Of a stretch of 11,226 nt of DNA, positions 1 through 11,226 are shown piece after piece. The stretch is from positions 1 to 11,226 of the forward strand of contig VYCX01000385.1 of NCBI GenBank assembly GCA_009843725.1. The letters are read 5' to 3'. Within the stretch, counting starts at the first letter, position 1. Every line of letters begins with the position of its first letter. The notes under the pieces are model-generated. The model was not told the DNA's origin and made no database searches. It was given only the letters and a program-made list of their open reading frames with translations. The DNA comes from Boseongicola sp. SB0675_bin_26 (GTDB taxonomy: Bacteria; Pseudomonadota; Alphaproteobacteria; Rhodobacterales; Rhodobacteraceae). The position numbers and the translations under genes were made by a program.

Positions 1-1949
1 GTCATGCACTGACTGCGGCCTCGGCAGCCTGGAACCAAGTCGGCGGCTTCATCCATGGCACCACGCTCGCCACCAATGCCCTGATCGAACGCCGAGGCGC
101 GAAGGTCGGCTCGATCACGACCGACGGCTTTCGCGACATCCTCGAAATTGCCTACGAGCGGCGCCACAGCCAGTATGCGATCAATCTCGAAAAGCCTGAC
201 CTGATCGTGCCCAGAACGCGGGCATTCACCTTGGGCGGGCGCATGAATGCACGCGGCGAGGAACTCGTCCCGTTCCATGAAAGTGCGGTGGCGGCGCTGG
301 CCGGGCGGCTTGAAGCCGATGGAATCGAGGCCGTCGCCATCTGCCTGCTTCATTCCTACGCGAACCCGACCCATGAACGGCGCCTCCGCGAGACGCTCCG
401 CGCGATGCTGCCGCATCTGGTGATTTCAGTCAGCCACGAGGTCAGCCCGGAAGCACGCGAGTTCGACCGATTGTGCACCACCGTCGCCAATGCCTACATC
501 CAGCCGCTCATGTCGCGCCATCTCGCGGAATTCGAGGCGCGGTTCCGCGCTGCGGGACTGGCCTGCCCCATCCTGATGATGACCGCGAGCGGCGGCATGA
601 CGACTCTCGAGACCGCCTCGCGCCTTCCGGTACGGCTGGTTGAATCAGGCCCGGCCGGCGGCGCGATCCTGGCTGCGCGGCTTGCCCGCGAGACCGCCTT
701 GGACAAGGTGCTTTCCTTCGACATGGGCGGCACGACGGCCAAGCTCTGCCTGATCGACGGCTTCCGGCCCCAGACCGCGCGGAAATTCGAGATCGCCCGC
801 GCCGAACGGTTCATCAGGGGTTCGGGCATGCCGGTACGCATTCCGGTCATCGAGATGATCGAGATCGGCGCCGGCGGCGGCTCGATCGCCGGCGTTGACC
901 GGCTCGGCCGGATTCGCGTCGGACCGCAAAGCGCGGGGGCGGACCCCGGGCCGGCCGCCTTCGGGAACGGCGGCAAGCAGCCCACGGTCACGGATGCCGA
1001 CATCGTGCAGGGGCTCATCGCGCCTGACGGCTTCGCCGAGTCCCGCATCGACATGGATCCGGGCGCCGCGACGGCGGCGCTGAAGAGCGAGGTCGGCGAC
1101 GCCCTTGGCCTCGATCCCGACCATGCGGCGTTTGCGGTCACCGAGATCGTGGACGAGAACATGGCGAGCGCCGGACGGATGCACGCAGTGGAATCCGGCA
1201 GGAACCTTGACGACCACGCCATGATCGCCATCGGCGGCAACGGTCCGCTTCACGCCACACGTCTCGCGCGGCGAACCCGTGTGCGCACTGTCGTCGTTCC
1301 AAGGAATCCCGGTGTCGGTTCCGCCGTGGGATTCCTTCACGCACCGGTATCCTTCGAAATCGTGCGCTCCCGATACACGACGCTCGAGTCTCTCGACGTC
1401 GACGCAATCAGCGGGTTCTTCCGTGACATGGCGAATGAAGCCCGCGCCGTTGTCAGGGCCGGCGCCCCGGACGGACCATTGACCGAGCGTCGGGTGGCAT
1501 TCATGCGATATCATGGACAAGGCCACGAGATCGAGGTCGCCGTCCCTCCCCGCGACCTGGAGCCGCCTGACGCGGATGGCCTGCGCCGTGCCTTCGAGGC
1601 AGAGTACAGCCGACAGTTCGGCCGCACCGTTCCGGACATGAAGATCGAGATCCTGAACTGGGCGCTTCATCTCGCGTCGCAGGTTCCTGACATCGGCCCG
1701 GCGCATGCCGCACCGGCGCCGACCGCCGCGCGTCCGGCCAGTGCCCGCAAGATACTCTGTGACGTCACCGGGAAATGGCGCGAAGCAGCGGTCTACATCC
1801 GCGCGGACTTGCCGAACGGCGCCCGCCTGTCGGGGCCTGCACTGATCACGGAGCCGCAGACGACGACCCTTGTGAGCGCGGATTTCGACGCAAGGGTGGA
1901 CGGCGCCGGGAACATCTGGATGACCCGGCAGGCAGGAGCATTGCCATGA
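1..1949 (+). CDS. hyuA: Hydantoinase/oxoprolinase family protein subunit A (5' end outside the window)
   Basis: HyuA is the ATP-binding subunit of ATP-dependent cyclic-amide hydrolases (N-methylhydantoinase, 5-oxoprolinase, caprolactamase types) and works in the cytoplasm with HyuB. The frame is open from the first complete codon at position 3, and its opening residues already match the family (FIHGTTLATNALIERRGAKV, visible residues 16-35). The true start is therefore upstream, and the GTG at 207 is an internal Val codon. About 648 residues are visible; full-length members are near 690, so roughly 40-60 N-terminal residues, including the first phosphate-binding VDxGGTFTD-type motif, are missing. 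Visible motifs are SGPAGG (about 215-220), FDMGGTTAK (239-247, actin-like ATPase fold), GAGGGS (289-294), GADPGPA (312-318), TDAD (330-333) and IGGNGPLHA (410-418). The gene overlaps hyuB by ATGA. Family assignment is firm. The substrate (hydantoin, oxoproline, caprolactam or another lactam) cannot be read from the sequence. Confidence 0.95.
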   Translation, partial: HALTAASAAWNQVGGFIHGTTLATNALIERRGAKVGSITTDGFRDILEIAYERRHSQYAINLEKPDLIVPRTRAFTLGGRMNARGEELVPFHESAVAALAGRLEADGIEAVAICLLHSYANPTHERRLRETLRAMLPHLVISVSHEVSPEAREFDRLCTTVANAYIQPLMSRHLAEFEARFRAAGLACPILMMTASGGMTTLETASRLPVRLVESGPAGGAILAARLARETALDKVLSFDMGGTTAKLCLIDGFRPQTARKFEIARAERFIRGSGMPVRIPVIEMIEIGAGGGSIAGVDRLGRIRVGPQSAGADPGPAAFGNGGKQPTVTDADIVQGLIAPDGFAESRIDMDPGAATAALKSEVGDALGLDPDHAAFAVTEIVDENMASAGRMHAVESGRNLDDHAMIAIGGNGPLHATRLARRTRVRTVVVPRNPGVGSAVGFLHAPVSFEIVRSRYTTLESLDVDAISGFFRDMANEARAVVRAGAPDGPLTERRVAFMRYHGQGHEIEVAVPPRDLEPPDADGLRRAFEAEYSRQFGRTVPDMKIEILNWALHLASQVPDIGPAHAAPAPTAARPASARKILCDVTGKWREAAVYIRADLPNGARLSGPALITEPQTTTLVSADFDARVDGAGNIWMTRQAGALP

Positions 1950-3595
1950 CGATGGACAGCACGCGCCTTCAGGTCCTCTGGGACAGGCTGCTCGCCGTTG
2001 TCGAGGAACAGGGTCAGGCTCTCATGCGCGCCGCTTTCAGCCCGATCGTGCGCGAATGCGGCGACATTTCGGCCGGGATATTCGATGCCGAAGGCCGGAT
2101 GCTCGCCCAGGCCGTGACCGGCACGCCCGGGCACGTCAACACGATGGCAATGGCCGTGAAATCTCTCCGCGACCGCTTTCCGGCCCAGGACATGCGCTCC
2201 GGGGACATCTACATGACCAACGATCCATGGATCGCGTCCGGCCACCTGAACGACTTTCTCCTGATGATGCCGATCATGCATGAAGGCCGGCTCGTGGGCT
2301 TCACCTCCTGCACGTCGCACCTCGTGGACCTCGGCGGGCAGGGCATGGGCCCCGAGGGTTCGGACATCCACGACGAAGGTCTCATGGTGCCGCCCTGCAA
2401 GCTGGTGGCGGCCGGCGAGATGAACGACCTCCTGCTCGACATCGTGAAGGCGAACTCGCGCGAACCGATCGCCAACGAGGGCGACATCTATGCGCTGACG
2501 GCCTGCTGCGAGGCCGGTGCCGCACGCGTGTGCCAGACAATGGAAGAATTTGGCCTCACCGACCTCCGGGATCTCTCGCGCCACATCGTCGAAGCCTCGC
2601 GCCGGGGAACGCGCGACATCATCGCGGAGCTGCCGAAGGGGACATGGAAGAGCAGCATGACCGTGGACGGCTATGACAGCCCGCTGACCCTGCGGGCCGC
2701 CCTCACGATTGCAGAGGACCATGTGCTGGTCGACTTTGCCGGCACCGACCCCTGCACCCGGAAGGGCATCAACGTGCCGCTGAACTACGCCACGGCATAC
2801 ACGGTCTTCGCCCTTCGCTGCATCATTGGCCCCGACATCCCCAACAATGCAGGCTCGCTCGAGCCCTTCCAGGTCACGGGACCGCCGGGCTGCATACTGA
2901 ATGCCAGGCCGCCGTCTCCGGTTGCGATGCGCCACACGCTTGGCCAGATGACGCCCGACCTTGTCTTTGGGTGCCTGGCGCAGGCACTTCCCGACATGGT
3001 GCCTGCCGAGGGCGCGTCCTGCATGTACGACCTTCCGCTTCGGCATGCGCCCGAAGCGGCGGAACGGGGGGACGTCCAGTTCGCCCTGGAACTCGTCTTC
3101 AACGGCGGAACAGGCGCGCGGCCAACCCGTGACGGCCTGTCGGCAACGGCGTTTCCAAGCGGTGTCTGGGGCAGCCAGGTGGAAACCACCGAGGCTGTGG
3201 CGCCGGTCCTGTTTCACCGTCGCGAACTGCGCAGGGATTCCGGCGGCCCCGGCCGGATGCGCGGCGGACTTGGGCAGCGAATCGAGATCAGCCCGGCGCT
3301 GAACCAGGACATGCTCCTGTTCCTCTCCGTCGAACGGGTCATGAACCCGGCACGTGGTCGCAGTGAAGGCCTGAAAGGCGCGCCAGGGCGCATCCGGATC
3401 GGCGAAGGGGGGCCGGAACTGTCCGGCAAGGGAGAGGTTCGCATCAGGCCTGGCGAGCGCCTGATCTTCGAAACCCCGGGCGGGGGCGGGTTTGGAGCGC
3501 CCGGACAGCGCCCGTCCGCCATGCTCGAAAGAGACGTGCAGGCCGGGCTTGTCAGTCCGGATGCCGCGCGACATGTCTATGGACGGTCACCATGA
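1946..3595 (+). CDS. hyuB: Hydantoinase/oxoprolinase family protein subunit B
   Basis: HyuB is the partner subunit that completes the ATP-dependent cyclic-amide hydrolase with HyuA. The product has 549 residues, normal for the family. Motifs in order: SPIVRECGDISAGIFD (32-47), GDIYMTNDPW (86-95) followed by GHLNDF (99-104), SHLVDLGG with His125 and Asp128 (124-131, candidate metal or active-site residues by family conservation), GGPGRMRGG about two thirds along, and a Gly-rich C-terminal ETPGGGGFG. The ATG at 1946 was chosen because it sits 7 bases after AGGAG (1934-1938) and overlaps the hyuA stop as ATGA. The frame stays open upstream to an ATG at 1775, but that region is hyuA coding sequence. 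A second ATG at 1952 is possible, but the 1946 codon fits the overlap pattern of the operon. Nothing suggests inactivation. Confidence 0.95.
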   Translation: MTMDSTRLQVLWDRLLAVVEEQGQALMRAAFSPIVRECGDISAGIFDAEGRMLAQAVTGTPGHVNTMAMAVKSLRDRFPAQDMRSGDIYMTNDPWIASGHLNDFLLMMPIMHEGRLVGFTSCTSHLVDLGGQGMGPEGSDIHDEGLMVPPCKLVAAGEMNDLLLDIVKANSREPIANEGDIYALTACCEAGAARVCQTMEEFGLTDLRDLSRHIVEASRRGTRDIIAELPKGTWKSSMTVDGYDSPLTLRAALTIAEDHVLVDFAGTDPCTRKGINVPLNYATAYTVFALRCIIGPDIPNNAGSLEPFQVTGPPGCILNARPPSPVAMRHTLGQMTPDLVFGCLAQALPDMVPAEGASCMYDLPLRHAPEAAERGDVQFALELVFNGGTGARPTRDGLSATAFPSGVWGSQVETTEAVAPVLFHRRELRRDSGGPGRMRGGLGQRIEISPALNQDMLLFLSVERVMNPARGRSEGLKGAPGRIRIGEGGPELSGKGEVRIRPGERLIFETPGGGGFGAPGQRPSAMLERDVQAGLVSPDAARHVYGRSP

Positions 3596-4674
3596 CCGGT
3601 GCACGGAAGCATGTCGCGGCGATGGCGCCCTACGCGCTGGCCGACCTTGGGGGGACGGGCGGCCGTCCTGCAGCTTCGCTGGCGCAGAACGAGAGCTTCC
3701 GCCCGCCTTGCCCCGGCACTTTCGAAGCGGTCATGGCGGCCATGGCCGATGCGGCGCTGTACCCGGATCCGGACTGGACCGAGCTGCGTTCGATGATTGC
3801 AGCGCGGCACGACGTGGACCCGGACACGATTCTTTGCGGCAGCGGTTCACTCGAACTGATCGGCTGCCTGGCACGCGCGTTTGCCGGTCCGCACCGCGCG
3901 GTCCTCGCTCCGAGACATGCCTATCCGTATTTTCGCAGTGCAGCGCAGGCAAGCGAGGCCCGGTTCGACACGGCGCCGGAATCCGACTGCACGGCGTCGG
4001 CAGACGCCCTTCTCGAAGCCGTCCGGCCGGATACCGGCTGCGTCTTCCTCGCCAATCCCGGCAACCCGACCGGAACCCGCATCCCGGGAGACGAGATCCG
4101 CCGCCTTCGCAGCAGCCTCCGCGAGGATATCCTGCTTGTCATAGACGAGGCCTATGGCGAGTTCGCCGACCATCTCGATGCGCCCCTCCTCGACATGGCC
4201 GCAACAGGAAACACGGTCGTCCTGCGCACGTTTTCCAAGGCGTACGGGCTGGCGGGCTGCCGCGTGGGATGGGGCACGTTTCCGGCAGGGATTGCGGTCG
4301 AGGTCCGGAAGGTCCTGAACCCCAACAACGTCTCCGCCATCTCGCAGGCCGCCGCACGAGCCGCGCTGCAGGACGATGCGTACATGCGCGCGACCTGCGC
4401 GCAGACCGCGGAGCGACGTGACCGGACGGCAAGGAAACTGGCCGCGCTGGGCGTTCGCTGCCTTTCCAGCAGCACCAACTTCCTCCTTCTGGATCTTGAA
4501 TCGCGGGAACGTGCGCGTTCCGCCGAGGCACGGCTCCGTTCCGGAGGCGCCGTCCTGCGCGCGCAAGGCGCCGCGGACCTTTCCCACTGCCTTCGCATGA
4601 CGATCGGCCGGGAAAGGGAACTGGACAATGCCATCCGCCTGCTTGAGACATGGACCAGGGAAGACACGCCATGA
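3592..4674 (+). CDS. HisC-type PLP-dependent aminotransferase (fold type I, class I/II)
   Basis: This 360-residue cytoplasmic enzyme has all the landmarks of the histidinol-phosphate aminotransferase-like family. These are an N-terminal substrate-side NE (residues 33-34), ANPGNPTG (154-161), IDEAYGEF with PLP-binding Asp185 (184-191), and TFSKAYGLAG with the Schiff-base Lys216 (213-222). Arg224 follows in GCRVGW, then TNFLL (295-299) and a C-terminal LRMTIG with carboxylate-binding Arg335. The expected reaction is transfer of an amino group between an amino acid and a 2-oxo acid. HisC-like sequences include many non-histidine enzymes, such as aromatic or aspartate aminotransferases and L-threonine-O-3-phosphate decarboxylase. 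The setting between hyuB and a racemase-type gene argues for a catabolic substrate rather than histidine biosynthesis (inference). The start overlaps the hyuB stop as ATGA, with only a weak Shine-Dalgarno (GGACGG, 3581-3586), so coupling to hyuB translation is likely. The exact substrate is unknown. Confidence 0.92.
   Translation: MTGARKHVAAMAPYALADLGGTGGRPAASLAQNESFRPPCPGTFEAVMAAMADAALYPDPDWTELRSMIAARHDVDPDTILCGSGSLELIGCLARAFAGPHRAVLAPRHAYPYFRSAAQASEARFDTAPESDCTASADALLEAVRPDTGCVFLANPGNPTGTRIPGDEIRRLRSSLREDILLVIDEAYGEFADHLDAPLLDMAATGNTVVLRTFSKAYGLAGCRVGWGTFPAGIAVEVRKVLNPNNVSAISQAAARAALQDDAYMRATCAQTAERRDRTARKLAALGVRCLSSSTNFLLLDLESRERARSAEARLRSGGAVLRAQGAADLSHCLRMTIGRERELDNAIRLLETWTREDTP
4657..4663 (+). 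promoter_or_regulatory. Ribosome binding site setting the start of the racemase-family gene
   Basis: AGGGAAG lies 7 bases before the ATG at 4671. It supports that codon over the in-frame ATG at 4650, which has no comparable upstream site and would add seven residues inside the aminotransferase gene. Confidence 0.6.
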
Positions 4675-5414
4675 CACCATCCCGCGGACGCGCCCGGCTG
4701 GGCCTGCTCGTCCCTTTCACGAACACGAATCTCGAGCCGGACATGACGCTCATGAGCCCGCCGGGCATCTCGGTCCACATCGCCCGTCTTGGAGGATATG
4801 ACGCGGAGCGGATACCTGACGCGTCCCAGATGCAGGGGCTAGGCGCATCGGACATCGACGAGCCGCTCCGCCTGCTCATGGGAGTCAGACCCGACATCAT
4901 CCTCTACGGCTGCACTTCGGCGACGCTTGCGCACGGGCCCGACTTTGACAGGGCGCTCGCGGCACGCGCCAGGTCCGTGAGCGGCGCCGAGACGGTGACC
5001 GCCGCGGGCGCCCTCGTCTCCGCGCTCAAGCTGCTGGATGCCAGGAGGGTCGGGCTTGCCTCGCCCTATGTTCCGGCGATCAACGACATGGCCGTCGCAT
5101 TCCTTGCGGAGGCAGGCATCGAAACCATCCAGCGATCAGAGGTTTCGGAGCCGCTCAGCAACGAAGAACAGGGCGCGATGACTCCCGACGAGGTCCTTGC
5201 CGCCGGGATCCGCGCCGACCATGACGATGCAGATGCCGTTGTCCTCTCCTGCACGGACATGCGCAGCGTCGAATCCATCGCGCGGCTCGAACGGGCCCTT
5301 GGCAAGCCTGCGATATGTTCAAACCAGGCCATGATGCACGCGGCGCTCCGCCGCCTTGGAATCGATGATCCCGTTGAAGGATTCGGCACGCTTCTTGAAA
5401 GGCCCCGCACATGA
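4671..5414 (+). CDS. Asp/Glu racemase-superfamily protein, maleate isomerase/arylmalonate decarboxylase type
   Basis: The product has 247 residues, the usual length for this two-domain pseudo-symmetric family. The N-terminus LGLLVPFTNTNLEPDM (10-25) matches the maleate cis-trans isomerase and arylmalonate decarboxylase branch. Two cysteines occupy the family's catalytic positions: Cys81 in YGCTSAT (79-85) and Cys194 in LSCTDMR (192-198). With both present, a two-cysteine mechanism (racemisation or cis-trans isomerisation) is favoured over arylmalonate decarboxylase, which uses one cysteine. That is family knowledge plus inference. Neighbouring genes make a maleate-like dicarboxylate or an amino-acid or hydantoin racemisation plausible. 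The start at 4671 overlaps the aminotransferase stop as ATGA and has a good ribosome site (AGGGAAG, 4657-4663). The 3' end overlaps the next gene by ATGA. Family certain, reaction uncertain. Confidence 0.9.
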   Translation: MTPSRGRARLGLLVPFTNTNLEPDMTLMSPPGISVHIARLGGYDAERIPDASQMQGLGASDIDEPLRLLMGVRPDIILYGCTSATLAHGPDFDRALAARARSVSGAETVTAAGALVSALKLLDARRVGLASPYVPAINDMAVAFLAEAGIETIQRSEVSEPLSNEEQGAMTPDEVLAAGIRADHDDADAVVLSCTDMRSVESIARLERALGKPAICSNQAMMHAALRRLGIDDPVEGFGTLLERPRT

Positions 5415-6748
5415 TCTCCGACGATCTCGCAGAGTTCGTGCTTGGCGCGCCCGACGTGCCGGAAGGCGCACTCGACTTCACCGCCACGCTGCTCGTTGAC
5501 ACGCTCGGCGTCACGGCGGGTTCCGCTCGCCTTGACGCCGCCCGAATCACCCGCGACCACGCGGTGCGGTTTCATGCCGCGGGCACGCCCGACGAGGCAG
5601 CCACCCTTCTCTTCGACGGCCGCAAGGCCTCCATTCCGGGAGCCGCCTTCGCGGCCGCGACGCAGACCGACAATCTTGACGCCCATGACGGCTTGAATCC
5701 GACCAAGGGCCATATCGGGTGTGCCGTCGTGCCTGCGCTCTGCGCACTGGCAGAACGCGAACCCGCGCTTTCGGGCCGCGACGCACTCACCGCGCTCGCG
5801 ATTTCATACGAGGTCGCCGCCCGCGCCGCGCTTTCGCTCCATGCGACCGTCAGCGACTACCACACGTCCGGGGCCTGGAACGCGCTTGGCGTCGCTGCAC
5901 TCGGGGCGCGGCTGCGGAACCTTGACGCCGGCCGGCTCCGGCATGCGCTCGGAATCGCCGAATACCATGGACCGCGCAGCCAGATGATGCGCGAAATCGC
6001 GAATCCGACCATGCTGCACGACGGCTCCGGCATGGGTGCGTTCGTGGGCCTCATGGCTGTGCTGCTGGCAGAGGAAGGGTTCGAGGGGGCTCCGGCCGCA
6101 ACCGTCGAGGCCGATGAGGTCGCGGAACGCTGGGGAGATCTCGGCCGGCGCTGGACGGTCGAGCAGAACTACGTCAAGCCCTACCCGATCTGCCGATGGG
6201 CGCATGCCGCAATCGACGCCCTCGGCCAGCTCATGGAGGAGCACGGGTTCGCCGCGCATGACGTATCCGCCATAGACGTGAACACGTTTGCCGAAGCCGC
6301 GCAGCTCTTTTCCGGCATGCCGGAGACCACTTCGCATGCCCAGTACTCCCTTGCCTTCGCCCTCGCCGCGCTGCTCGTCCACGGCAAGATCGGACCGGAC
6401 CAGGTGACCGGCAAGGCCTTGTCGGACCCTGACATCGAGGCCGTTGTCAACAGGATCCGGGTTTCCGAGGACCCCCGCCACTCGGCGCGATTTCCGGACG
6501 GTCGCTGGTCCGACGTCACGGTTCATCTGTCTGACGGCCGCACGATGTCGTCCGGAGACGTCAATGCGAAGGGGGGTCCGGAGGCACCCCTTCCGCACGC
6601 CGCCGTCGAAGCGAAGTTCATCGACATGACAAGGCGCCTCGACCGCGGCCGCGCGACGGCCATCTGGGAAATGCGCGACCGTCTGACAGAGCCCGGCACG
6701 AAGTTCGCCGATCTGCTGCGGCTCCTCCACGCGCGCCCGGACTCATGA
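5411..6748 (+). CDS. MmgE/PrpD family protein
   Basis: This is a 445-residue full-length member of the MmgE/PrpD family. Known members are 2-methylcitrate dehydratase, cis-aconitate decarboxylase and iminodisuccinate epimerase, all acting on di- or tricarboxylates without an Fe-S cluster. Landmarks are DNLDAHDGLNPTKGHIG (87-103), the segment where active-site His and Asp residues lie in characterised relatives; HTSGAWNALGVAALGARL (151-168); AEYHGPRSQMMR (183-194) with HDGSG (203-207); VKPYPICRWAHAAIDAL in the second half; and GRWSDVTVHLSDGRT near the C-terminus. The HGPRSQMMR/HDGSG wording differs from classical PrpD and suggests another subgroup (inference). The ATG at 5411 overlaps the previous stop as ATGA and follows GAAAGG (5397-5402) by 8 bases. 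With a maleate-isomerase-type neighbour upstream and a hydroxyacid dehydrogenase downstream, dehydration or epimerisation of a hydroxy- or amino-dicarboxylate is a reasonable guess. The substrate is unknown. Confidence 0.92.
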   Translation: MISDDLAEFVLGAPDVPEGALDFTATLLVDTLGVTAGSARLDAARITRDHAVRFHAAGTPDEAATLLFDGRKASIPGAAFAAATQTDNLDAHDGLNPTKGHIGCAVVPALCALAEREPALSGRDALTALAISYEVAARAALSLHATVSDYHTSGAWNALGVAALGARLRNLDAGRLRHALGIAEYHGPRSQMMREIANPTMLHDGSGMGAFVGLMAVLLAEEGFEGAPAATVEADEVAERWGDLGRRWTVEQNYVKPYPICRWAHAAIDALGQLMEEHGFAAHDVSAIDVNTFAEAAQLFSGMPETTSHAQYSLAFALAALLVHGKIGPDQVTGKALSDPDIEAVVNRIRVSEDPRHSARFPDGRWSDVTVHLSDGRTMSSGDVNAKGGPEAPLPHAAVEAKFIDMTRRLDRGRATAIWEMRDRLTEPGTKFADLLRLLHARPDS

Positions 6749-7713
6749 CGCAACCCCCCCGCGTTCTCCTGCACAACAATGCCACCGCAAGGCATGCGGA
6801 CAGGCTGCGGTCCATGTTTCCAAATTTCGACGTGGAGGAATGCACGACCTACGCGAACCTGCCCGACATGGTCCGGGAGTTCAGGCCCGACGTGGTCTTC
6901 ACGATCCGCTTTGCAGGCAGTCACCGTTTTCCCCGCGACGCCCTGCTCGCGCCGGGCGGTCCCCGATGGATCGCGAATGGCGGCGTGGGAACGGACCATT
7001 TCGGGCAGTGGGATCCGGCCAGCACTACAATCACGAACGCCGCCGGGGTGGCGGCGGACATGATGGCGGAATACGTTCTTGGCGGCTTCCTGCACTTCAC
7101 TCTCGACATCGAGGGACTGCGTCAGGACAAGGCAGGTCGCGTTTGGCGCGCGCGCAACATGGTGCCGCTCAGGGGAAAGACGCTTCTGATCGTCGGTCTC
7201 GGGCACACTGGGCGTGCACTTGCCGAGAAGGCCAGGATCTTCGGCATGCATGTCGTCGGATTGCGCTCAAGACCGCAACCCACCGAATGCGTCGACATCG
7301 TGGGCGGTCCGGACGACCTCCCTGACTTCCTTGAGGACGCAGACTGCATCGCCGTCTGCGCTCCGCTCACGTCGGCAACCCGCGGCATGCTCGGACGGGC
7401 CGAGATATCCGCAATGGCACCGGGCGTGCTCCTTGCCGATGTCTCCCGTGGCGGAATCGTGGACCAGGCGGCTCTCGCGGACGCGCTTGCCTCCGGCCAT
7501 GTCGCCGGTGCCGCACTTGACGTGTTCGAGACCGAGCCCCTGCCGACCGACAACCCGCTCTGGGACATCGACAACCTGATCATCTCGCCGCATTGCTCAT
7601 CGGTCTATGACGGCTGGGAAGACGCTTCCTTCGATCTCTTCCTTGACAATCTAGGCAGATGGATTGCCGGAATCCCTCTCAGGAACGTCGTCGACCCGGA
7701 GCGCGGCTATTGA
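6745..7713 (+). CDS. D-isomer-specific 2-hydroxyacid dehydrogenase family protein
   Basis: This 322-residue NAD(P)-dependent dehydrogenase would interconvert a 2-oxo acid and a D-2-hydroxy acid. The substrate domain carries NGGVGTDH (78-85). The Rossmann domain starts with GLGHTG (151-156), the GxGxxG dinucleotide loop. Catalytic residues of the family are present: Arg235 in SRGGIVD (234-240), Glu264 in DVFETEP (259-265) and His283 in SPHCSS (281-286). Length and motifs are intact, so the enzyme should be active. It resembles the phosphoglycerate/glyoxylate-reductase-like group, but there is no C-terminal ACT domain, so it is not a classical regulated SerA. The ATG at 6745 overlaps the MmgE/PrpD stop as ATGA. 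Only a poor Shine-Dalgarno is visible (GGA, 6739-6741, 3 bases away), so translation probably depends on coupling. A run of seven C at 6754-6760 lies in codons 4-6. Cofactor preference and substrate cannot be read. Confidence 0.92.
   Translation: MTQPPRVLLHNNATARHADRLRSMFPNFDVEECTTYANLPDMVREFRPDVVFTIRFAGSHRFPRDALLAPGGPRWIANGGVGTDHFGQWDPASTTITNAAGVAADMMAEYVLGGFLHFTLDIEGLRQDKAGRVWRARNMVPLRGKTLLIVGLGHTGRALAEKARIFGMHVVGLRSRPQPTECVDIVGGPDDLPDFLEDADCIAVCAPLTSATRGMLGRAEISAMAPGVLLADVSRGGIVDQAALADALASGHVAGAALDVFETEPLPTDNPLWDIDNLIISPHCSSVYDGWEDASFDLFLDNLGRWIAGIPLRNVVDPERGY
7698..7701 (+). promoter_or_regulatory. Ribosome binding site supporting a TTG start of the M81 gene
   Basis: GGAG ends 8 bases before the TTG at 7710. 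Together with the TTGA stop/start overlap it favours 7710 over the in-frame ATG at 7659, which lies 55 bases inside the dehydrogenase gene and would add a non-conserved, Arg-rich N-terminus. Confidence 0.5.
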
Positions 7714-9239
7714 CCTGCACCGCCCCCAGGCATCGGATCGCCGTTGCCGGCTTCCAGCACGAAACCAACAGTTTCGGCTTCGGAACGGCAGACATGCCGG
7801 AATTCGAAATGGCGGATTCATGGCCCGCCCTCGTTGAAGGCGATGCCGTGCGCGACGGAACGCTCGGCCTGAACCTGCCGATCGCGGGATTCATCAGAGC
7901 GGCGGAGGCGTCCGCACGGATCGAGCTCCATCCCGTCCTTTGGTGCGCCGCCGAGCCATCCGGCCCTGTCACCGACCACGCGTTCGAGACGATCACGGCG
8001 CGCATCCTTGACGGCATCGGCAAGGCCGCGCCTCTGGACGGCCTGTATCTTGACCTCCACGGCGCGATGATCACCGCAAGCCACGATGACGGCGAAGGCG
8101 AGCTGCTTCGCCGCATCCGTGCGCAGCTTGGTCCCGACCTGCCGATCGCTGTCAGCCTTGACATGCATGCGAACGTCACGAACGACATGGTCCGGCACGC
8201 CAGTTCGATCAGCATCTATCGCACCTACCCACACCTGGACATGGGCCAGACTGGCGTCCGCGCCTTGTCCCGCCTGCTGCGCCTGCTCCAAGGCGAGCGG
8301 CCTGCGACAGCGTTTCGGCAATTGCCTTACATCATCCCCATGCATGCCCAGCATACAGGTTCCGACCCCATGCGCGGGCTCTACAGGCTTGCAACCGAGA
8401 TGTCGGTTGGAGACAGGCATGTGGAACTCGCCGTCGGGTTCACTGGTGGCGACATCGCCGATTCCGGCCCCTCGCTGCTTGCCAGCGCCGTCGATCAGGC
8501 GAAGGCGGATGCGGCGGCCGACGCTCTTCTCGACGCGACGCTCGCTGCCGAAACGGACTTTGACTGTTCGCTCCGCACGCCCGAGGAAGCCGTGGACGCC
8601 GCGCTGGCATTTCCTCCCGGCAGGCCCGTCACGATTGCCGACGTGCAGGACAACCCCGGTGGCGGCACGTCATCGGACACGACCGGCCTCCTCAAGGCGC
8701 TCGTGAAGGCCCGGGGGAAACAGGTCATCGTCGGCGTCATCCACGATCCCGCGACGGCGGCCGAGGCGCACAGGCTCGGCATCGGACGCGAGTTCCGGGC
8801 CGGCCTTGGCGGCAAGTCGGGCATCATGGGCGACACGCCCCTTGACGCACGCTTCCGCGTCGAGGCCCTGAGCAACGGAGAAGTCGCCTACCGAGGCGAA
8901 ATGTATGGCGGCGGCACGGCCCGGATGGGTCCCACGGCGGTGCTTCGCCCGCTCGGGACTGACGCCGACATCCGCATCGTGACCTCGAGCGTCCGCAACC
9001 AGTGTCTCGACCGGGCCTATTTCTCCCATGTCGGCCTCGTTCCCGAGAAGGCGGACATCATTGCGGTCAAGAGCACCGTGCACTACCGAGCCGAATTCGA
9101 GCCGATCAGCCAGGGCGTGATCTCCTGCGGCGCGCCGGGCGCGCTTCCGTGCGACATCGGCCTGATTCCCTATCGAAATCTGCGCCCGGGCGTTCGCCTC
9201 GGGCCGTGTGGGCCCGCTCACGGCGTGCCGCGAAAATAA
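7710..9239 (+). CDS. M81 family metallopeptidase (MlrC-type)
   Basis: M81 (MlrC, microcystinase C) proteins are cytoplasmic metal-dependent hydrolases; the founding enzyme degrades linear microcystin peptides, and most members have unknown substrates. With the TTG start the product has 509 residues, the normal length, and the conserved N-terminus RIAVAGFQHETNSFGFG begins at residue 9. Candidate metal or catalytic motifs, by family conservation, are HETN (17-20, Glu18), DLHGAM (115-120), DMHAN (151-155), TYPHLDMGQTG (172-182), DVQDNPGGGTSSDTT (311-325) and VIHDP (343-347). The N-terminal DUF1485-like part runs to about residue 290 and the MlrC C-terminal part follows, with VHYRAEFEP (457-465) near the end. 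It sits last in the seven-gene overlap chain and directly before a peptide-type ABC transporter, so it probably cleaves an amide bond in the imported compound (inference). The start codon is the least certain point; the ATG at 7659 is the alternative. Confidence 0.92.
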   Translation: MTCTAPRHRIAVAGFQHETNSFGFGTADMPEFEMADSWPALVEGDAVRDGTLGLNLPIAGFIRAAEASARIELHPVLWCAAEPSGPVTDHAFETITARILDGIGKAAPLDGLYLDLHGAMITASHDDGEGELLRRIRAQLGPDLPIAVSLDMHANVTNDMVRHASSISIYRTYPHLDMGQTGVRALSRLLRLLQGERPATAFRQLPYIIPMHAQHTGSDPMRGLYRLATEMSVGDRHVELAVGFTGGDIADSGPSLLASAVDQAKADAAADALLDATLAAETDFDCSLRTPEEAVDAALAFPPGRPVTIADVQDNPGGGTSSDTTGLLKALVKARGKQVIVGVIHDPATAAEAHRLGIGREFRAGLGGKSGIMGDTPLDARFRVEALSNGEVAYRGEMYGGGTARMGPTAVLRPLGTDADIRIVTSSVRNQCLDRAYFSHVGLVPEKADIIAVKSTVHYRAEFEPISQGVISCGAPGALPCDIGLIPYRNLRPGVRLGPCGPAHGVPRK

Positions 9240-9287
9240 CGGTTGAATCATCGGGATTTGCGGTCAGTATTGCCTTTGATGAAGAAT

Positions 9288-9303
9288 CCGGACCACCGGA
9301 CCA
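9288..9303 (+). repeat. Perfect 8-bp tandem direct repeat in the leader
   Basis: CCGGACCA occurs twice back to back (9288-9295 and 9296-9303), 10 bases before the ribosome site of the binding-protein gene. It could be a regulator site or chance in G+C-rich DNA; the sequence alone does not decide. Confidence 0.5.
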
Positions 9304-9313
9304 AAGCAAATGT

Positions 9314-9319
9314 GGAGGA
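9314..9319 (+). promoter_or_regulatory. Strong ribosome binding site of the solute-binding protein gene
   Basis: GGAGGA lies 5 bases before the ATG at 9325 and is the best Shine-Dalgarno in the window. It overlaps the region that would be coding if the upstream in-frame ATG at 9310 were used, so 9325 is the preferred start. A strong site fits the high expression expected for a periplasmic binding protein. Confidence 0.8.
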
Positions 9320-9324
9320 ACACA

Positions 9325-10896
9325 ATGTCATCAATTACGGGATCACCCGCGTCGGCAGGCGTCAGCCGCCGCAGCGTCCTCAAGGGCGCAACGGCGCTTG
9401 GCACTGCCGCGCTCGTCACGCCCTGGGGCACGCCGCTCAGGGCGCAGCCCAAGCGCGGCGGCACGCTGCGCGTCGGCATGGCCCATGGCTCGACGACCGA
9501 CGCGATGGATCCAGGCAGCTGGGAAGCCGACTTCATGATCTTCCAGGCGCACACCCGGAACAACTACCTGACCGAAATCGCCACGGACGGCTCCCTCGTT
9601 CCCGAACTGGCCGAAAGCTGGGAAGCCTCGCCGGATGCAAAGGTCTGGACATTCAATATCCGCGAAGGCGTCGACTATCATTCCGGGCACAGGCTCGTCG
9701 CGGAGGACGTGATCGCGTCGATCGACCATCACCGCGGAGAGGACTCCACCTCTGCCGCAAAGCCGATCGTCGAGGACATCGTGGACATGAAGGCCGACGG
9801 CATGAACGTGATCATCACGCTTGCCAACGGCAATGCCGACTTCCCGTTCGTCCTGTCCGACTATCACCTTCCGATCCTTCCGGCGAAGGATGGCAAGATC
9901 GATCCCGAGACCCGTGACGGCTGCGGACCGTTCCGGATCGTCGACCTCGAATTCGGCGTCGGCGCGCTTTACGAGCGCCACGAAGGGTACTGGAAGAGCG
10001 GCCTGCCCTACATCGATGCCATCGAGCAGATCGTCATCCATGACGACGCCGCACGCCAGAACGCCCTGATCTCGGGCGAGGTCAACTACATCGACACGGT
10101 GGACCTCAATACCGTGTCGCTGCTTGGACGGGCCGCGGGCATCGAGATCCTTTCGGTGACGGGCACGCAGCACTACGGGCTCCCGATGGACACCCGCGCG
10201 GCGCCCTTCGACGACGTGAACGTGAGGCTGGCGCTGAAATACGCGATCAATCGCCAGCAGCTCGTGGACACGATCCTGAACGGCTACGGCTCGCTCGGCA
10301 ACGACCATCCGATCGGCCCGGGCGCGCGCTTCTTCAACACCGACCTGCCCCAGAAGGAACTCGACCCGGACAAGTCGAAGTTCCACCTCAAGCAGGCTGG
10401 CCTCGACAGCCTCAGCGTCGACATCCACCTCGCCGACGCGGCGTTCGCGGGCGCGATCGACGCAGGCGTCCTGTTCTCGGAATCGGCAGCTTCGGCCGGC
10501 ATCAGCCTCAATGTCGTGCGCGAGCCGAACGACGGCTACTGGAGCAACGTCTGGATGCAGAAGCCCTTTGTCGGCACGTATTGGGGCGGCCGCCCCACGG
10601 AGGACTGGATGTTCGCCACGGCCTATGCCGAGGGCGTTCCCTGGAACGAGACCTACTGGAGCCACGACCGCTTCAACGAACTGCTCGTCTCGGCACGCTC
10701 CGAACTCGACGAGAACCTGCGTCGCGAGATGTATTTCGAGATGCAGCAGCTTGTTTCGGACGAAGGCGGAATCATCATTCCGATGTTCGCCGCCTACGTC
10801 GGCGCCTACAGCGACACCCTGGTCAAGCCGGATCAGGTCGCGTCGAACTGGCGCAACGACGGCCATCGGATCGGCGAGCGCTGGTGGTTCGCCTGA
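9325..10896 (+). CDS. ABC transporter solute-binding protein, family 5 (Dpp/Opp type), Tat-exported
   Basis: This 523-residue periplasmic receptor belongs to a peptide/nickel/opine-type ABC importer and captures the substrate for the inner-membrane permeases. The N-terminus has a twin-arginine signal, SRRSVLKG (14-21), followed by a hydrophobic Ala/Leu stretch (22-32). Cleavage is expected near LRAQ (38-41), so folded export by Tat is likely. The mature part begins RGGTLRVGM. Family 5 hallmarks follow: LVPELAESWEASPD (91-104), WTFNIREGVDYHSG (108-121), DVIASI (128-133), the NVRLALKYAINRQQLV segment around residues 295-310, and YWGGRPTEDWMF in the last quarter. No lipobox cysteine is present, so it is not a lipoprotein. 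Family 5 ligands range from di- and oligopeptides to opines, glutathione and small amines. The upstream amide-hydrolase operon suggests a peptide-like or cyclic amide ligand (inference). The start at 9325 is fixed by the GGAGGA ribosome site. Confidence 0.95.
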   Translation: MSSITGSPASAGVSRRSVLKGATALGTAALVTPWGTPLRAQPKRGGTLRVGMAHGSTTDAMDPGSWEADFMIFQAHTRNNYLTEIATDGSLVPELAESWEASPDAKVWTFNIREGVDYHSGHRLVAEDVIASIDHHRGEDSTSAAKPIVEDIVDMKADGMNVIITLANGNADFPFVLSDYHLPILPAKDGKIDPETRDGCGPFRIVDLEFGVGALYERHEGYWKSGLPYIDAIEQIVIHDDAARQNALISGEVNYIDTVDLNTVSLLGRAAGIEILSVTGTQHYGLPMDTRAAPFDDVNVRLALKYAINRQQLVDTILNGYGSLGNDHPIGPGARFFNTDLPQKELDPDKSKFHLKQAGLDSLSVDIHLADAAFAGAIDAGVLFSESAASAGISLNVVREPNDGYWSNVWMQKPFVGTYWGGRPTEDWMFATAYAEGVPWNETYWSHDRFNELLVSARSELDENLRREMYFEMQQLVSDEGGIIIPMFAAYVGAYSDTLVKPDQVASNWRNDGHRIGERWWFA

Positions 10897-10908
10897 TCTG
10901 ACCCGCAT

Positions 10909-10948
10909 TGCCCCCGGCCGGTCCCGACGACCGCGTCGGGGGCATTTT
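10909..10948 (+). terminator. Hairpin with short T run between binding-protein and permease genes
   Basis: The arm 10909-10918 (TGCCCCCGGC) pairs with 10935-10944 (10 bp including one G-T pair). After a one-base bulge at 10934, 10919-10923 pairs with 10929-10933 around a 5-base loop. TTTT follows at 10945-10948. The stem begins 12 bases after the binding-protein stop. It looks like a leaky intrinsic terminator or a 3'-stabilising stem that raises binding-protein mRNA over the permease message. The T run is short, so full termination is doubtful. Confidence 0.65.
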
Positions 10949-10993
10949 CCTGCAGCGGCCAAGAGCTGACCGATGTGACAGCAAGGGAATTCG

Positions 10994-11226
10994 ATGTCTC
11001 ACATTGCCAACATGATCCTGAAGCGCATTGCGCTCGGCATCCTGACGCTCTTCGTCGTGTCGCTCATCATCTTCCTGGCCACCGAACTCCTGCCCGGAAA
11101 CTTCGCCCAGGAAATCCTGGGCCAGTCGGCAACCCCTGAAACCGTGGCGGCGCTCAGGCGACAGCTTGGCCTGGACCAGCCGATGCACGTGCGATACGCA
11201 GGCTGGCTCATGGATGTCCTCCGGGG
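10994..11226 (+). CDS. ABC transporter permease, DppB/OppB type (3' end outside the window)
   Basis: The frame is open from ATG 10994 to the window edge, giving 77 complete codons. The ATG is 4 bases after AAGGGAA (10983-10989), a good ribosome site. The N-terminus reads MSHIANMILKRIALGILTLF, then a hydrophobic run to about residue 28 (first membrane helix), then TELLPGNFAQEILGQ and a cytoplasm-to-periplasm segment with ETVAALRRQLGLDQP (about 46-60). This order (short basic N-terminus, one helix, LPG motif, LRxxLGLD) is typical of DppB/OppB/GsiC-type permeases, which reach about 310-330 residues. It should form the inner-membrane channel with a DppC-type partner encoded downstream. It is partial, and nothing after the periplasmic segment can be judged. 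Confidence 0.92.
   Translation, partial: MSHIANMILKRIALGILTLFVVSLIIFLATELLPGNFAQEILGQSATPETVAALRRQLGLDQPMHVRYAGWLMDVLR

Follow-up and report, generated by a model that had tools for sequence, protein, structure and literature searches.

A conserved operon of marine Rhodobacterales that may serve the catabolism of a cyclic amide

We have analysed a stretch of 11,226 nucleotides (hereafter the window; positions 1 to 11,226 of contig VYCX01000385.1, assembly GCA_009843725.1) from the alphaproteobacterium Boseongicola sp. SB0675_bin_26. It carries eight genes, followed by the beginning of another, all on the plus strand, which a preliminary description had read jointly as a possible pathway for a cyclic amide or peptide-like compound. 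These genes are not chance neighbours. Four of them, encoding the two subunits of an ATP-dependent hydantoinase/oxoprolinase-type enzyme (HyuA and HyuB), a HisC-like aminotransferase (AT) and a two-cysteine racemase/isomerase superfamily member (Rac), stand in this order and on one strand in 71 of 80 loci, and with an MmgE/PrpD-fold enzyme (PrpD) and a D-2-hydroxyacid dehydrogenase (HADH) they form a shared unit whose conservation, intact motifs and co-occurrence are directly observed. We regard it as an operon, conserved in marine Rhodobacterales and some other Alphaproteobacteria, for the catabolism of a cyclic amide, an explanation that, taken as a whole, has in our view an even chance of being right.

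The gene set and its conservation

The genes of this unit lie in the window as follows:

3..1949, plus strand: HyuA, ATP-binding subunit of the hydantoinase/oxoprolinase type (Pfam Hydantoinase_A, 246 bits), 5' end outside the window
1946..3595, plus strand: HyuB, metal-site subunit of the same enzyme (Pfam Hydantoinase_B, 486 bits)
3592..4674, plus strand: AT, HisC-like class I/II aminotransferase (Pfam; TIGR01141 hisC, 247.5 bits)
4671..5414, plus strand: Rac, two-cysteine protein of the Asp/Glu-racemase/maleate-isomerase (Amdase) superfamily (Pfam, NCBIfam and a PDB match)
5411..6748, plus strand: PrpD, MmgE/PrpD-fold enzyme (Pfam MmgE_PrpD_N and MmgE_PrpD_C)
6745..7713, plus strand: HADH, D-2-hydroxyacid dehydrogenase (Pfam 2-Hacid_dh_C)

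A Pfam scan of the window proteins recovered, on the plus strand, every family named in the preliminary description, with two corrections of extent: HyuA is identified but incomplete, being short by ca. 50 residues at its 5' end when compared with that of locus L017, and the window takes in no more of the importer than the binding protein and the beginning of the first permease, the rest lying beyond it. The five consecutive junctions from HyuA/HyuB through PrpD/HADH are 4-base ATGA overlaps, and HADH overlaps the following M81 gene by TTGA, which suggests that the genes form one operon. The source assembly (4.14 Mb in 574 contigs) is 92% complete, and the nearest named relatives are metagenome-assembled genomes (MAGs) of Boseongicola and Silicimonas, with Rac identities of 88-91%.

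Related loci were located by scanning genome contigs with a Rac-only alignment of six rows, which gave 191 confirmed places; counts out of 80 refer to the 80 best of these, which are related to one another. Among the nine loci lacking the complete HyuA-HyuB-AT-Rac order, five are cut by contig ends (L026, L054, L067, L077, L086), two have no HyuAB (L057, L058) and two no AT (L069, L083). Named plasmids of Ruegeria and Leisingera carry the same four-gene order. PrpD was found in 39 of the 80 loci, immediately after Rac in 35, and HADH in 46, of which 44 have it on the same strand, no more than 3 kb downstream; 33 loci have both.

The association extends to whole genomes. We took 149 genomes of the family to which the window belongs, one per genus, of which 13 have a Rac orthologue (E ≤ 1e-70), and compared them by Fisher tests, whose p-values are too small, as genera are treated as independent and shared ancestry and horizontal transfer are ignored. 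At the preset threshold of E ≤ 1e-90, PrpD is present in 13/13 Rac-positive and 31/136 Rac-negative genomes (p = 3e-8); at 53% identity or more, a cut set post hoc after a gap from 53 to 48% had been seen, the figures are 12/13 and 4/136 (p = 1.5e-13). HADH (E ≤ 1e-75) occurs in 9/13 against 3/136 (p = 1.9e-9). By coordinates, eight genomes have PrpD at most 10 kb from Rac and eight have HADH at most 3 kb from it, the window's genome being among them in both cases. Since PrpD is found in 12 or 13 of the 13 Rac-positive genomes, it is part of the pathway even though often not adjacent. The joint catabolic set proposed earlier is thus borne out for HyuAB, AT, Rac, PrpD and HADH, which do occur together, whereas the M81 protein and the family-5 importer mostly do not accompany them.

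L126-L133, with racemases 34-37% identical, do not have the operon, and HyuAB is in the same stretch only in L130 and L132. The racemases of L122-L124 (family f34) are 51-54% identical to Rac, with HyuAB found in L122 only; this locus, the sole one of the three that was scanned, has an auxin-efflux-type transporter and a DUF2889 gene followed by HyuAB-Rac without an aminotransferase, and is possibly a stripped-down relative of the set. A Paracoccus yeei plasmid (L014, 7775-14942) holds an analogous set, with a pyridoxal phosphate (PLP) enzyme annotated metC, a 37% identical racemase, HyuAB at 46-49%, a gene annotated MmgE/PrpD (28%) and importer genes. The copy on a Leisingera methylohalidivorans plasmid (L011, 11475-14992) looks decayed, with HyuA shortened and HyuB and the aminotransferase fused in one frame. 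PrpD and HADH do not adjoin the core in Ruegeria L022, L027, L032 and L090 (also L023 and L028), where a neighbouring cluster on the opposite strand, read from its translations and domain-scanned only for its TRAP binding protein, looks like one for dihydroxypropanesulfonate/sulfopyruvate metabolism. Genes upstream in L057 and L075, considered as molybdenum hydroxylase subunits, are actually unrelated cytochrome-oxidase genes of the FixG/H/I/P type.

Conserved residues and candidate reactions

The ATP and metal motifs of HyuAB are intact, as befits the enzyme first proposed. Over 86 aligned rows HyuA keeps DMGGT and GxxPGP throughout and DxGGT in 83, with three gaps; the window's own DxGGT position falls outside the window. 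For HyuB (rows of at least 40% identity, window included), the metal site of the caprolactamase CapB, given as Asp41, His99, Asp102 and His124 in the excerpted text of PMC8453981, aligns with D, H, D and H, each conserved in 86/86 rows. A cyclic amide would be the substrate expected from family membership. The caprolactamase models score 412 bits against HyuA and 200 against HyuB, where the NCBIfam equivalog cut-offs are 1000, and the truncation of HyuA is too small to account for the missed CapA cut-off.

The score of AT against the hisC model is under the 276.55 cut-off, so that by this criterion it does not qualify as a histidinol-phosphate aminotransferase. Its K216, R323 and R335, which we take to be the PLP lysine and the C-terminal arginines, are present in 86/86 rows. 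Rac finds its best PDB match in maleate isomerase (2xec) and also matches EutA, while its score against the Asp_Glu_race model is under the cut-off. N18, C81 and Y133 are conserved in 93/93 rows, C194 in 92 (with one gap) and N164 in 91; all five align with 2xec, so that Rac appears to possess the active-site residues of a maleate isomerase. Racemases have the two cysteines too. Like maleate isomerase (2xec, 4fq7), Rac conserves both cysteines, Asn18, Tyr133 and Asn164, although the match is only 86 bits. An excerpt of PMC4996985 gives Gly74 instead of the first cysteine as the mark of arylmalonate decarboxylase; with Cys81 in all rows, Rac is therefore not such an enzyme, of which a single catalytic cysteine is characteristic.

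The best PDB match of PrpD is iminodisuccinate (IDS) epimerase, at 77 bits. It shares the fold family of this enzyme and of cis-aconitate decarboxylase (IRG1), and Asp and His positions are conserved within the set. Unlike them, it has no lysine in residues 192-206 in any of 42 rows, whereas IDS epimerase and IRG1 have one right before the MHxG/LHxG motif; the PrpD residue opposite (Thr200, Met201 or Leu202) varies with the alignment. That lysine we presume to be catalytic in both relatives. The assignment of PrpD to the pathway stands on its co-occurrence with Rac, but the dicarboxylate chemistry once ascribed to it is unsupported, the lysine being absent. In HADH, the presumably catalytic R235, E264 and H283 are present in 51/51 rows, and Arg174, the first residue of an Arg-Ser-Arg stretch in the cofactor loop after the second beta strand, is present in 50, which suggests a preference for NADP(H). 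A gene for a DapA-family aldolase directly follows HADH in L039, L047, L051, L062, L063, L066, L072 and L073, and at 50% identity or more this aldolase is found in 11 of the 80 loci, pointing to an oxo acid that would be split by an aldolase.

From these enzyme kinds we infer the substrate class, every reaction and their order. HyuAB would spend ATP to hydrolyse the amide bond of a cyclic substrate of the lactam, imide or hydantoin type. Rac would act next to it, on its substrate or its product, by epimerisation or cis-trans isomerisation, and AT, the PrpD-fold enzyme and HADH (probably NADP-dependent) would bring the opened acid to central metabolism. The position of Rac is hinted at by four loci without AT (L069, L083, L120 and L122; the search for an aminotransferase was confined to the loci) in which it stays with HyuAB. 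These loci also give a hint counter to the order of the preliminary description, in which isomerisation came last.

A number of observations weigh against the operon being one dedicated route from a cyclic amide. Near Rac, PrpD was not found in 41 of the 80 loci and HADH in 34, some of them cut by contig ends. The four AT-less loci, and L057 and L058 in which HyuAB is missing, mean that no single linear pathway suits every locus, and these last two, with AT, Rac, PrpD and HADH present, speak in addition against Rac acting next to HyuAB. HyuAB-type metal sites and ATP motifs are common to carboxylases (excerpted text of PMC8453981), so that hydrolysis by HyuAB is not certain. The inflated significance of the Fisher tests has to be counted here too. 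Finally, the binding-protein family (E ≤ 1e-110) occurs in 115 of the 149 genomes and is therefore not specific to the gene set; nor is M81.

Genes added in particular clades

Downstream of HADH, the window and the remainder of its 13,251-base contig contain:

7710..9239, plus strand: M81 (MlrC-type) metallopeptidase, accessory (Pfam DUF1485 and MlrC_C)
9325..10896, plus strand: family-5 (Dpp/Opp) solute-binding protein (Pfam SBP_bac_5)
10994..11226, plus strand: first importer permease, start only (ca. 230 bases), an open frame running past the window end
11728..12651, beyond the window: second importer permease
from 12656, beyond the window: importer ATPase

The start of M81 is a TTG overlapping the HADH stop, with an ATG at 7659 as the alternative, and its best PDB match is microcystinase C (7ylq, 148 bits). 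The start of the binding protein was picked from a GGAGG upstream; a signal read by eye, RRSVLKG, is twin-arginine-like, and the best PDB match is AgaA (6hlx, 98 bits), followed by DppA (96 bits). Both M81 and the importer had been taken for integral parts of the pathway, and this could not be upheld. M81 is near the set in only 8 of the 80 loci, seven of these being the window clade plus its sister L044, and the binding protein near the core in 7. Among the 149 genomes M81 (E ≤ 1e-120) is present in 5/13 Rac-positive and 17/136 Rac-negative ones (p = 0.026, rising to 0.07 when the window genome is left out), and of the five Rac-positive genomes that have it the window genome alone has it near Rac. 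Within the window clade the arrangement is constant: in each of its seven loci (the window, L017-L020, L024 and L082) HADH is followed by M81 and the binding protein, and importer permeases and ATPase were not found in L020. M81 and the binding protein also come after HADH in L044, where the binding protein is 81% identical to that of the window and a CocE/S15 hydrolase precedes M81. M81 and the importer thus look like additions of the window clade and a few others, and we hold with moderate confidence that they are an added unit, which would import the substrate as a conjugate or in a peptide-like form and make the first cut in it.

They could instead form a separate unit for peptide scavenging, with nothing but the transcript in common with the rest; this is otherwise compatible with the operon proposed here, and we consider it a substantial, if lesser, possibility. 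In Leisingera and Ruegeria, M81, importer and an amidohydrolase form a separate cluster of their own, and the association of M81 with Rac is weak, as seen above. Against independence, M81 and HADH overlap in the window and M81 keeps its place after HADH in the whole clade and in L044, L049 being the case of a separate placement, with M81 and CocE on the opposite strand and no importer. All the plasmids with M81 at 52% identity or more (17 among the matches listed) are within the 20 listed with PrpD at 53% or more, though 16 of the 17 are from Leisingera and therefore not independent; on these plasmids the two genes share a replicon without being adjacent.

A different kind of addition marks a sister group. 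The tree of 97 Rac sequences, in which the bootstrap had not settled and long outgroup branches were flagged, contains a 65-row clade that includes the window (type A, support 100/98) and an 11-row clade (type B, 99/100) formed by L007, L009-L011, L092, L094-L096, L121, L125 and L134. Five of the 11 type B loci (L009, L010, L092, L121, L134) include an MttB methyltransferase, two (L010, L134) a sarcosine-oxidase-like complex, and in three (L010, L125, L134) a family-5 binding protein 45-50% identical to that of the window adjoins HyuA. MttB is also in the operon of L074 and L084, which belong to neither clade. The proteins of L009, L010, L074, L084, L092 and L121 are 64-94% identical to one another, and those near L066, L072 and L120 are 36-44% identical to these six. 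Both types of locus appear to be present in the MAG G394 (L033 of type A and L134 of type B).

Raw MttB counts in 20-kb neighbourhoods were near chance (5/80 loci, three of them with the L010 subfamily), a verdict reversed at the subfamily level: MttB of the L010 subfamily (E ≤ 1e-190) is found in 5/13 Rac-positive against 1/136 Rac-negative genomes (p = 1.3e-5). The window genome has nine MttB-family matches, one a fragment, and no match to this subfamily at that threshold. Among 49 of the genomes behind the 80 loci, L010-type MttB (E ≤ 1e-170) is present in nine; of six of these places examined one (L134) is beside a copy of the core, and the remaining three of the nine are L074, L084 and L092. 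Away from Rac, MttB adjoins PrpD in G464 and HADH in G510. Since non-pyrrolysine MttB proteins are betaine demethylases, to judge from titles cited in PMC12478193, the MttB of type B, with the sarcosine-oxidase-like complex of two loci, makes it likely that some substrates of this type are N-methylated; for type A, that of the window, it is no more than a hint. A report of 'HydA' beside MttB in acetogens (excerpted text of PMC9768040) was considered and not used.

Near L009, L010 and L095 there is a DMGDH-type FAD oxidoreductase (87-90% identical), a further sign of N-methyl chemistry, and L140 has an annotated one in a comparable position. As an operon part such a protein was rejected: it is directly upstream of HyuA in five close relatives (L017-L019, L024 and L082), but identity between the groups near different loci is just 28-39%, and among 21 family matches in the window genome there is no close orthologue, so that it is not counted. 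L140, on a plasmid of Leisingera caerulea S185, has PrpD-MttB and an aldehyde dehydrogenase adjoining (8986-13387), and in Leisingera M658 (L009) the HyuA-HyuB-AT-Rac cassette separates MttB from the aldehyde dehydrogenase; PrpD-MttB can thus persist where the cassette, a discrete unit, is missing.

A bolder version of the operon, which we put forward tentatively and think rather doubtful, is a two-form marine pathway that degrades N-methylated cyclic amides, namely betaine-type lactams or hydantoins. In type B the compound would be demethylated by MttB and the sarcosine-oxidase-like complex; in both types HyuAB, coupled to the two-cysteine isomerase, would open the ring, and the lysine-free PrpD would have a new activity.

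Relation to known systems and significance

IDS epimerase, the nearest solved relative of PrpD, acts on an opine-like compound, and the agropinic acid aga genes belong to the lactam-opine regions of Ti plasmids. It might be thought that the importer brings in the lactam of an amino-acid conjugate, which HyuAB opens so that the released amino acid and carbon acid are used. The window does combine a family-5 importer, with a binding protein nearest to AgaA, and HyuAB, and in pTiEU6 a HyuA/B pair lies beside opine catabolism in an uptake/catabolism region and is proposed to open lactam opines (excerpted text of PMC6733357). However, AgaA is ahead of DppA by just 2 bits, most of the loci showed no importer near the core, conservation of an opine-splitting oxidase was not seen, and the HyuB matches on Agrobacterium plasmids (among 60 of 927 records listed, in which opine genes were not told apart) are 26-38% identical, all of which makes this reading unlikely.

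Hydantoin utilisation (hyu) loci have HyuA, HyuB, a member of the Asp/Glu/hydantoin-racemase superfamily and a carbamoylase. The first three have their counterparts here, and Rac could be a hydantoin racemase paired with an ATP-dependent hydantoinase, while an enzyme encoded elsewhere in the genome would split the N-carbamoyl amino acid. The best PDB match of HyuB is indeed an N-methylhydantoinase (7hk5, 191 bits), and Rac has two cysteines like the racemases of its superfamily (excerpted text of PMC4996985). But Rac scores with maleate isomerase and EutA, AT, PrpD and HADH are extra, and, as had been stated earlier, there is no N-carbamoylase among the window proteins scanned with Pfam; nor is one conserved beside the set, no further protein cluster being present in more than 9 of 89 loci (neighbours were partly Pfam-scanned and the rest of the genomes was not searched). 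We judge a hydantoin pathway as improbable as the opine one.

That HyuAB is an ATP-dependent carboxylase similar to those of acetophenone or acetone, within a set degrading a ketone or oxo acid, is less probable still: the acetophenone carboxylase models match HyuA (223 bits) and HyuB (84 bits) and the motifs are common to both kinds of enzyme, but the caprolactamase models score higher and no further carboxylase subunit is among the window proteins. For homarine degradation, also considered, the literature search turned up no link to these genes.

Among the nearest known systems to the operon proposed here for a cyclic amide is also the caprolactam cluster of Pseudomonas jessenii (CapAB, an aminotransferase and a dehydrogenase, in the excerpted texts of PMC6061476 and PMC8453981), which has in common with it the metal and ATP motifs of an ATP-dependent HyuAB-type lactamase, an aminotransferase and a dehydrogenase. 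In that cluster the aminotransferase is a subgroup-II omega enzyme and the dehydrogenase acts on 6-oxohexanoate, in place of which we find the HisC-like AT, Rac, PrpD and HADH, and the CapA and CapB models stay far below their cut-offs. The preliminary description knew of no characterised pathway with this set, and in the open-access papers that we searched, most subscription papers being outside the reach of the search, no description of the operon was found either. The kinds of enzyme are known; the combination, the two locus types and the lysine-free PrpD seem to be new.

The operon is clearly delimited, is retained in many marine Rhodobacterales and has conserved active-site motifs. Its carriers include cultured strains of Ruegeria, Leisingera and Roseovarius, so that its function is testable, and a natural comparison is offered by the Leisingera plasmids, some of which have the core cassette and others not. 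If the substrate were identified, several enzymes whose annotation now stops at the superfamily would gain a function, and a dissolved nitrogen compound in use in the sea might come to light.

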